Assembly: GCF_023487995.1 (NCBI RefSeq)
Contig: NZ_JAMFKN010000001.1
Coordinates: 62,001-126,000, forward strand
Source: Thermohalobaculum sediminis
GTDB lineage: Bacteria; Pseudomonadota; Alphaproteobacteria; Rhodobacterales; Rhodobacteraceae
Direction of reading: 5' to 3'
DNA length: 64,000 nucleotides
Each line of letters starts with the position of its first letter. Position 1 is the first letter of the stretch. The translations under genes were made by a program, and so were the position numbers. The notes under the pieces were generated by a model. It saw nothing but the letters and a program-made list of their open reading frames with translations, was not told the origin of the DNA and made no database searches. Shown piece after piece: positions 49,892 through 52,078 of this stretch.

Positions 49892-50224
49892 TCAGGCGTC
49901 GTTCGCGGGCTCGGTCTTCGACAGGACCTGCGCGATGGTCGACTTGACGACGCGGATCTTGACGCCCTCGGCAATCTCGACCTCGGCCTCGTCGTCCTCG
50001 CGCACGCGGGTGACCTTGCCGAGGATCCCGCCTGCCAGCATCACCTGGTCGCCCCGGCGCAGGGCCTCGACCATCGAGCGGTGCTCCTTGGCGCGCTTCT
50101 GCTGCGGGCGGATCAGCAGGAAGTAGAAGATCACGAAGATCAGCACGAGCGGCAGCAGCGAGGTGATGAAGCTCGCTTCTCCGCCGGCTCCGGCGGCCTG
50201 GGCGTAGGCGGGGGTCGCGAACAT
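49892..50224 (-). CDS. yajC: Sec translocon accessory protein YajC
   Basis: The 110-residue protein has one membrane helix (LLPLVLIFVIFYFLLI) followed by RPQQKRAKEHRSMVEALRRGDQV and the GGILGKVTRV segment diagnostic of YajC. The ATG at 50224 gives a normal length; the frame is open upstream without support. YajC forms a complex with SecDF, its downstream neighbour. The 309-bp region before it contains an FnrL-type site, but that site faces and is nearer the plus-strand microprotein. Confidence 0.94.
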   Translation of the reverse strand: MFATPAYAQAAGAGGEASFITSLLPLVLIFVIFYFLLIRPQQKRAKEHRSMVEALRRGDQVMLAGGILGKVTRVREDDEAEVEIAEGVKIRVVKSTIAQVLSKTEPANDA

Positions 50225-50403
50225 GCGGGCTCCTTTCGTGACAACTGGTTCTGGCGTGCCACGATGGTCGCGGCCGCAGGCAGGGGCGATATATACGCCG
50301 CCCCCCCGGCTTGCAAGCAAGCCACGGCGCGCCGGGCGCGGCGGTGCTGCAGCTTCGGCTCTGCGCCAAGGGCTTTCGCAGGCGCAGCATCTTTTCGCAC
50401 TTG

Positions 50404-50430
50404 CAATATTTTTTGGCTTGAGGAATATTG
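50404..50430. repeat. A+T-rich inverted repeat CAATATT...AATATTG
   Basis: CAATATT (50404-50410) and AATATTG (50424-50430) are exact inverted repeats separated by 13 bp that include a TTTTTT run. Such sequence is unusual in this GC-rich genome. It ends 20 bp before the FnrL box, so it may be a second regulator site, a UP-like element or the end of an unseen transcript. Confidence 0.45.
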
Positions 50431-50450
50431 TTGCGCAGGGGCGGCCGAGG

Positions 50451-50464
50451 TTGACACAAATCAA
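50451..50464 (+). promoter_or_regulatory. FnrL/FNR-type binding site
   Basis: TTGACACAAATCAA matches the Rhodobacter FnrL consensus TTGAY-N4-RTCAA at every defined position. It is centred about 76 bp before the microprotein start, which allows a class II activation layout with the transcript starting near 50499. FnrL activates many genes under low oxygen in this group. The match is visible in sequence; the regulation is inferred. Confidence 0.7.
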
Positions 50465-50533
50465 TGTAAGCCGGCTCTGGCACGGTCATCGTGCTCAAGG
50501 ACAACGAAAAAACGATTGCCTGGGAGAGAACGC

Positions 50534-50614
50534 ATGCTCGATGTCATGTATTATGGCGCAGCCGCGCTGGGCATCACGCTGTATGCAGCGGTGATGGCGA
50601 TCGCCTTCGTCTGA
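50534..50614 (+). CDS. 26-residue membrane microprotein downstream of an FnrL box
   Basis: The ORF runs from ATG 50534 to TGA and has GGGAG 7 bp upstream. The peptide starts MLDVMYYGAAALG and continues as an uninterrupted hydrophobic helix with one Thr and a second Tyr, ending in Val. It has no charge except Asp3, which predicts one membrane span with an outside or inside N-terminus. The size recalls small subunits of terminal oxidases such as CydX or CcoQ/M-type proteins, but no family is recognised. The FnrL box suggests low-oxygen expression. It is too short for most gene finders. Confidence 0.65.
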   Translation: MLDVMYYGAAALGITLYAAVMAIAFV

Positions 50615-50785
50615 CGCCGGGCCAACCGGCCCCGACGGGATCCGACTGCCGGCGCGGCGCCTTCAAGCGATCCGCGCCGGGCTTGTCACCCGCCCCGCGG
50701 GTCCCGCCGGACCCCTCGCCACGTGCTGGAAAACCTCTGCCGGATCGGCTATGCCGCGCGCGTCCGATCCCGAAGGAGCAGCCCC

Positions 50786-52078
50786 ATGCACGACATCCGC
50801 GCCATTCGCGACAACCCGGCCGCCTTCGACGCCGCGCTCGCCCGCCGCGGGATGTCGCCCGTCTCGCCACAGATCCTCGCCATCGACGAGGCACGCCGCG
50901 CGAAGATCACCGCCGCCGAGGCCGCGCTGGCCGCGCGAAATACGGCCTCCCGGGACGTGGGCAAGGCCAGGGCCGGCGGCGACGAGGCGGAGTTCGAGCG
51001 CCTGCGCGCCCTGATGGCCGATAAGAAGGACGAGATCGCCCGCCTCGAGGCCGAAGCGAAGGCCGAGGACGACCGGCTGAACGGCCTGCTGATGACCCTC
51101 CCCAACCTGCCGCTCGACAGCGTGCCCGACGGCCCCGACGAGACCGCCAATGTCGAGCTGCGCCGCTGGGGCACCCCCCGCGCCTTCGACTTCGCACCGC
51201 GCGAGCATTACGAGCTGGGCGAGGCGATGGGGCTGATGGATTTCGAGCTTGCCGCCAAACTCTCGGGCGCCCGCTTCGTCACGCTCAAGGGCGCGCTGAT
51301 CCGGCTGCACCGCGCGCTCGCGCAGTTCATGCTCGACACCCATGTCGACGAGAACGGGCTGACCGAGGTCTGGACCCCCGTGCTGGTCAAGGACGAGGCG
51401 ATGATCGGCACCGGCCAGTTGCCGAAATTCGCCGAGGACAGCTACCAGACCACCAATGGCTGGTGGCTGATCCCGACCGCCGAGGTGACGCTGACCAACA
51501 TCGCGGCGGGCGAGATCCTCGACGCGGCCGCCCTGCCCCTGCGCTTTACCGCCTGGACCCAGTGCTTCCGCTCCGAGGCCGGCAGCGCCGGCAAGGACAC
51601 CCGCGGCATGCTGCGCCAGCACCAGTTCGAGAAGGTCGAGATGGTCTCGATCACCACGCCCGAGGACGCGCTCTCCGAGCACGAGCGCATGACCCGCTGC
51701 GCCGAGGGAATTCTCGAACGCCTCGGCCTGCCCTACCGCACCGTGGTGCTCTGCACCGGCGACATGGGCTTCGGCGCCCGGCGCACGCATGACATCGAGG
51801 TCTGGCTGCCGGGACAGAACACCTACCGCGAGATCAGCTCCTGCTCGGTCTGCGGCGACTTCCAGGCCCGGCGCATGAACGCCCGCTTCCGCCGCGAAGG
51901 CGAAAAGCGCCCCGACTTCGTGCACACCCTGAACGGCTCGGGCCTCGCGGTGGGGCGCACGCTGATCGCGGTCATGGAGAACGGCCAGCAGGCGGATGGC
52001 TCGATCGTGATCCCCGAGGTGTTGCGCCCCTACATGAAAGGCGCAAGCCGGATCGCGGCGGACGGCATGCTGAGCTGA
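50786..52078 (+). CDS. serS: Serine-tRNA ligase
   Basis: The 430-residue class II synthetase charges tRNA-Ser and tRNA-Sec. The N-terminal coiled-coil arm ([20 protein letters not shown] to about residue 110, with [17 protein letters not shown]) binds the tRNA long arm. The catalytic core has motif 2 [23 protein letters not shown] and motif 3 [21 protein letters not shown] 50786 has AAGGAG upstream at good spacing; an in-frame upstream codon has no such site. In related genomes serS, surE and pcm are commonly adjacent; here a GNAT gene lies between serS and surE. Confidence 0.96.

Follow-up and report, generated by a model that had tools for sequence, protein, structure and literature searches.

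A microprotein of 26 residues is encoded between yajC and serS in the genome of Thermohalobaculum sediminis, at 50534–50614 of the window, by which we mean the whole stretch of 64,000 nucleotides that was analysed. To judge from the substitutions that separate it from its counterpart in a related species, this is almost surely a genuine protein-coding gene. The best reading of its distribution is that the gene belongs to the genus, and that its control by FnrL is a feature of one lineage. Taken as a whole, the explanation which we tentatively prefer is a genus-level microprotein that would be activated by FnrL at low oxygen in the window species and in Thermohalobaculum xanthum.

The gene and its product

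The open reading frame (ORF) runs on the forward strand from the ATG at 50534 to 50614, stop included, and its 26 codons give the product MLDVMYYGAAALGITLYAAVMAIAFV (26 aa), with a single hydrophobic stretch. A sequence-only reading of this DNA had described such a product behind a good ribosome-binding site, and both can be seen directly: GGGAGAGAACGC at 50522–50533 on the same strand stands immediately before the ATG and is identical in T. xanthum, and GGGAGAGA is also present in the genus member G004. The ORF is the only one in the 64-kb window, on either strand, that combines an ATG start and 20–40 codons with a match to AGGAGG of at least 4/6 and a hydropathy of at least 2.0 over 17 residues. 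Its location was also given correctly, since both neighbours score above the cut-offs of their families. The divergent neighbour is yajC (49892–50224, reverse strand; TIGR00739, 98.7 bits, cut-off 44.2), and the downstream neighbour is serS (50786–52078, forward strand; TIGR00414, 500.9 bits, cut-off 301.65). By eye, yajC has its own promoter-like TTGCAA..TATATA at 50290–50316, and the same is seen in G002 and G142.

The closest genus member is T. xanthum M0105 (G001, NZ_JAEHHL010000001.1), with a SerS identity to the window of 90%, as compared to 78% for G002 and 75% for G004. The ORFs of the two species differ at 14 bases, 13 of them at third codon positions (P = 6e-6); in terms of codons, 12 changes are synonymous and one, G8S, alters the amino acid. 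When substitutions were simulated at random, one amino-acid change or fewer was obtained in 0 of 200,000 runs. At the three codon positions the two ORFs are 96, 100 and 50% identical, to be compared with 90, 94 and 74% over the first 200 codons of serS (ungapped), and downstream of the ORF stop the two species share 35 of 106 columns. What the comparison reveals is purifying selection on the amino acids, the mark of a protein-coding gene.

The peptide very probably forms a membrane helix. The window copy has one charge, D3, and numerous small residues, and would therefore be suited to packing against another helix. There was no match in Pfam, NCBIfam or the PDB sequences at E up to 10, searches in which a query of 26 residues has little power, and none to the microprotein among plasmid sequences. 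The ORF sequence has one match in the window genome (4.31 Mb).

The FnrL box

The perfect FnrL consensus that had been noticed some 70 bp before the ORF is indeed there: TTGACACAAATCAA, at 50451–50464 on the forward strand, is the sole site in the window with no mismatch to TTGAYNNNNRTCAA, and the gap to the ATG measures 69 nt. With at most one mismatch there are four sites in the window, and 100 shuffles gave a mean of 1.04, three of them reaching four. From the base composition, 0.016 perfect boxes are expected per window and 1.1 per genome. The perfect boxes counted, as compared to a reversed control pattern, were 32 and 1 in the window genome, 20 and 0 in T. xanthum, 46 and 2 in G002, 23 and 1 in G003, and 15 and 1 in G004. 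FnrL itself is encoded in the window genome (equivalog NF045989, 367.3 bits, cut-off 300), and in both species fnrL adjoins ccoN, each gene behind a box (the T. xanthum genes were named by eye). The upstream consensus box by which a gene is counted to the FnrL regulon is thus found before the microprotein gene.

In T. xanthum the box reads TTGACACATGTCAA; 12 of its 14 bases are kept and both changes are permitted by the consensus, and of the 13 bases directly upstream of it 3 are kept. The box at 50451–50464 could also be used by other regulators of the CRP/FNR type.

Distribution in the genus and the family

NCBI taxonomy places Thermohalobaculum in the Paracoccaceae of the Rhodobacterales, and G002–G004 are members of the same genus by the label of the genome collection. 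The gene is present beside yajC in three of four genus members, namely the window genome, T. xanthum and G004, and absent there in G002; in G003, which is 85% complete, serS was not found and there was no profile match. Upstream of serS the gene was seen in 2 of 33 regions, those of the window genome and T. xanthum, where the stretch inspected was 1500 bases, or 560 in G002 because of a contig end, and where the copy of G004 lies beyond it. In other family genomes neither neighbour had it upstream: the count was 0 of 29 regions for serS, taken from the 30 that scored highest among 147 genomes carrying this gene, and 0 of 29 for yajC (1000 bases, the best-scoring of 191 genomes with a match). 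The gene had been thought to belong to a core locus, and these two counts do not support conservation at the yajC/serS locus throughout the family. No fewer than 15 of the remaining 31 serS regions have yajC divergent from serS.

A two-sequence profile run against 394 family genomes gave strong matches in the window genome and T. xanthum, and the next had E 0.009; by its genus tally this set leaves no room for G002–G004. With a three-sequence profile and 389 relatives, the window genome, T. xanthum and G004 were strong (by construction), the next match had E 0.016, and G002 and G003 were unmatched. A search with a single sequence missed G004, which means that diverged copies elsewhere could escape such searches. 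None of 20 weak loci of the two-sequence profile that were inspected has a consensus box, and loose box matches lie near five of them (L109, L111, L112, L115 and L123). By eye, most of the 20 appear to be fragments of other frames; L113 begins with M. Among 18 further profile loci, six hold one or two consensus boxes, all of them, by reading, at least 1 kb from the match. The pattern MLDVMYY occurs in 24 stretches of genome contigs, of which T. xanthum is the sole one titled as an alphaproteobacterium, two titles being without a group.

The ORF of G004, MQAIHYIAPTVAMTLYAMLMAAVLIG, lies at C9:38374-38294, has 26 codons, is divergent from yajC and stands behind TGGGAGAGA. With an offset of one residue, eight residues are identical to the window peptide: Y7, A9, T15, L16, Y17, A18, M21 and A22. 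The alignment score was reached by 13 of 100,000 shuffles with offsets of up to 2 residues, and the identity count alone by 2,706 of 100,000; pairwise BLASTP of the two peptides returned no alignment. What makes the G004 ORF a homologue is the combination of its location, its length, the ribosome-binding site before it and the alignment score. In this genome serS starts about 1.9 kb from the ORF, and the gap between yajC and serS is about 2.4 kb.

The G004 copy has no FnrL box within 450 bases, and none with up to 2 mismatches between the ATG and yajC; the best FnrL-like sites in the nearest 250 bases have 3 mismatches. The box is thus retained in one of the two homologues, that of T. xanthum, and the ORF in both. 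It follows that oxygen control is not constant for the gene and that its function need not concern oxygen. The idea of an oxygen-responsive gene accordingly stands in part, favoured by the FnrL gene of the genome and by the box kept in T. xanthum, and not by G004. The oxygen link looks newer than the gene itself.

Promoter elements and the direction of control

A sigma-70-like element, TTGCAA-N17-AATATT, is found at 50401–50429 on the forward strand, 133 nt before the ATG, and would be a promoter. Its counterparts lie 134 nt before the ATG in T. xanthum and 144 nt in G004 (TTGTCA-N17-TATCCG), and in each of the three species it is the only qualifying site within 250 bases, where shuffles gave means of 0.14–0.34. 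As the element is common to all three in place and N17 spacer, the box-less G004 included, it looks like the older promoter, and FnrL may either switch on another promoter or obstruct this one.

In class II activation the −10 hexamer is expected at a spacing of 22 nt from the box. At this distance after the box, at 50487–50492 on the forward strand, there is a weak candidate, CATCGT (TATCGT in T. xanthum), which scores 3/6 in the window genome and 4/6 in T. xanthum and falls inside a block conserved between the two, GGCTCTGG..CGGT.ATCGT. The equivalent positions at targets of known type, ccoN, fnrL and ccoG, score just 2–3/6, so this test discriminates poorly, and with a weak hexamer and other FnrL-linked genes doing no better the class II spacing is suggestive only.

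We consider activation by FnrL to be fairly probable, and repression doubtful. When oxygen falls, FnrL would bind 50451–50464 in the window species and T. xanthum, and the bound protein would turn on a class II promoter with its −10 near 50487–50492 and its start near 50499, in addition to the older promoter at 50401–50429 or replacing it. Relative to a start from that older element the box falls at about +16 to +29, which could be a repressor position, with FnrL as the repressor. It is conceivable, then, that transcription begins near 50436 from 50401–50429 and meets the box as a roadblock, so that the microprotein is made in air and turned off at low oxygen. For this unlikely alternative speaks the fact that the element with its N17 spacer has counterparts nearly equidistant from the ATG in three species, also in the one that lacks a box. 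Against it speaks the block conserved between the window genome and T. xanthum, whose −10-like hexamer has the class II spacing from the box, as does a stricter promoter scan, which listed zero sigma-70 sites in 50200–50850.

A possible partner in the membrane

The free-standing gene would give a 26-residue single-pass inner-membrane microprotein, whose helix would probably lie against a larger complex in the membrane and adjust the assembly or activity of that complex. In the two species with a box a respiratory complex would be the first candidate, a partnership that is possible though not likely. The G004 copy without a box weakens the respiratory reading and leaves room for a partner needed under all conditions. 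The small subunits of cytochrome bd of the CydX/CydH type are of similar size and likewise have a single hydrophobic stretch; in contrast to them the microprotein matches neither Pfam nor NCBIfam with E up to 10. By profile or sequence it does not match any known small oxidase subunit, in comparisons where 26 residues give little power. It can also be likened, by description, to CcoM, a 36-residue subunit of the cbb3 oxidase of Pseudomonas stutzeri which is important under oxygen limitation (PMC10433244). Both are very short and linked to oxygen limitation, but the oxygen control of the microprotein is not constant and its partnership with an oxidase would be our inference only.

A cbb3 oxidase is, more specifically, an improbable partner. 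By eye, ccoNOQP and ccoGHIS appear complete in the window genome and T. xanthum, CcoQ and CcoS included, and as the cbb3 clusters already have these two the microprotein would be an addition. The idea that it replaces a missing CcoQ was rejected, CcoQ being present in both species (by eye). CcoQ and CcoS of the window genome (named by eye) are likewise short and hydrophobic and belong to FnrL-linked cbb3 clusters, but they are of 54 and 51 aa, lie within operons and exist alongside the microprotein. Another resemblance is to the small proteins encoded before kdpA: the weak match L104 also has M-L-D-V and a similar size, but it precedes a kdpA-like gene (by eye) and no box was found.

The partner could also be a non-respiratory complex that is required in any condition, such as the SecDF-YajC export machinery, an alternative to which we give little probability. 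Whether a box is there or not, the gene is divergent from yajC in the window genome, T. xanthum and G004. But this shared position may reflect common descent alone, and 29 other family genomes, as well as G002, lack the gene near yajC.

It is quite unlikely that the FnrL promoter instead drives serS, and that the transcript made at low oxygen is that of serS, with the ORF as its leader or as a passenger. The ORF stop and serS are on the same strand, 171 bases apart, and no terminator-like site was found between them in the window, so that read-through into serS is possible. On the other hand, serS is more than 1.8 kb from the ORF in G004, the stretch between ORF and serS keeps just the 35 of 106 columns, and serS seems to have a separate promoter. 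By eye its likely promoter region, CTGGAAA..GGCTATGCC, with the leader occupies 50721–50785 on the forward strand, and the promoter-like block is visible also in G002, G008 and G142. No more credible is a peptide that acts on the membrane in the manner of type I toxins, which would agree with the size and hydrophobicity only, and which the one match in the genome argues against. Least probable of all is a regulatory RNA under FnrL with an incidental ORF, as the promoters of two sRNAs carrying FnrL sites in R. sphaeroides (PMC4263372) might suggest, given that all but one of the 14 differences fall at third positions and that the peptide of G004 is similar.

Other FnrL-box loci

A screen was made for boxes followed at 25–160 bases by a hydrophobic ORF of 18–60 codons with a ribosome-binding site. 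In the five genus genomes 136 boxes were counted, 123 of them distinct, and 5 of the 123 precede such an ORF: the microprotein pair of the window genome and T. xanthum, L191 (G003), L198 (G002) and L224 (G002). Within the 394 family genomes the box-plus-ORF pattern occurs in 2 genomes in its strict form and in 5 in a relaxed form; what the three extra genomes hold is, by eye, a YeeE-like transporter and a TraR/DksA-like protein, and in the remaining case ORFs of at most 19 codons.

At L142 (G000:C2:90900-93400, in the window genome) and L198 (G002:C8) the box is followed by a short single-helix ORF and then by a CuA-type oxidase subunit II. The ORF of L142 has 59 aa and no Pfam match, and that of L198 at least 45 aa; the subunit II of L142 scores 22.1 bits for COX2 at a cut-off of 22, and that of L198 was recognised by eye. 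The short ORF may encode a small subunit of one more heme-copper oxidase. At L140 and L169, in the window genome and T. xanthum, the box lies between genes that by eye are TldD/PmbA-like and coxB-like. In Table 3 of PMC4263372 (CrpK sites) coxI is given a minus sign. L191 (G003:C32, box at 2312) has a 21-codon hydrophobic ORF, MDKHMNELVAMGALAAAIVGM, 66 bases behind its box, and was seen in one genome only. An identical box with flanking ORFs of 182 and 62 codons occurs twice in the window genome (L160 and L168, G000:C42 and C43), and at L265 (G011) a gene that by eye is TraR/DksA-like follows a box at a distance of 63 bases.

Implications

In the portions of the literature seen, nothing was recognised as this microprotein gene, and serS, seryl and yajC are absent from the main text of PMC4634722 and PMC4263372, where targets may be given as locus tags only. 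Membrane microproteins that stand alone are readily overlooked because they are so short. In R. sphaeroides, 13 FnrL ChIP sites lie outside the upstream regions of annotated genes, and the authors proposed unannotated elements (PMC4263372). One gene, found in two species with a box and in a third without, offers a natural comparison. It may be, although we consider it rather doubtful, that a microprotein born in the genus was captured later by FnrL in one sub-lineage, which would put an accessory helix of a membrane complex under oxygen control, and that it is one of a number of hidden stand-alone microproteins linked to FnrL. If this is true, such microproteins could explain some of the 13 unassigned sites in R. 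sphaeroides (Imam et al.).
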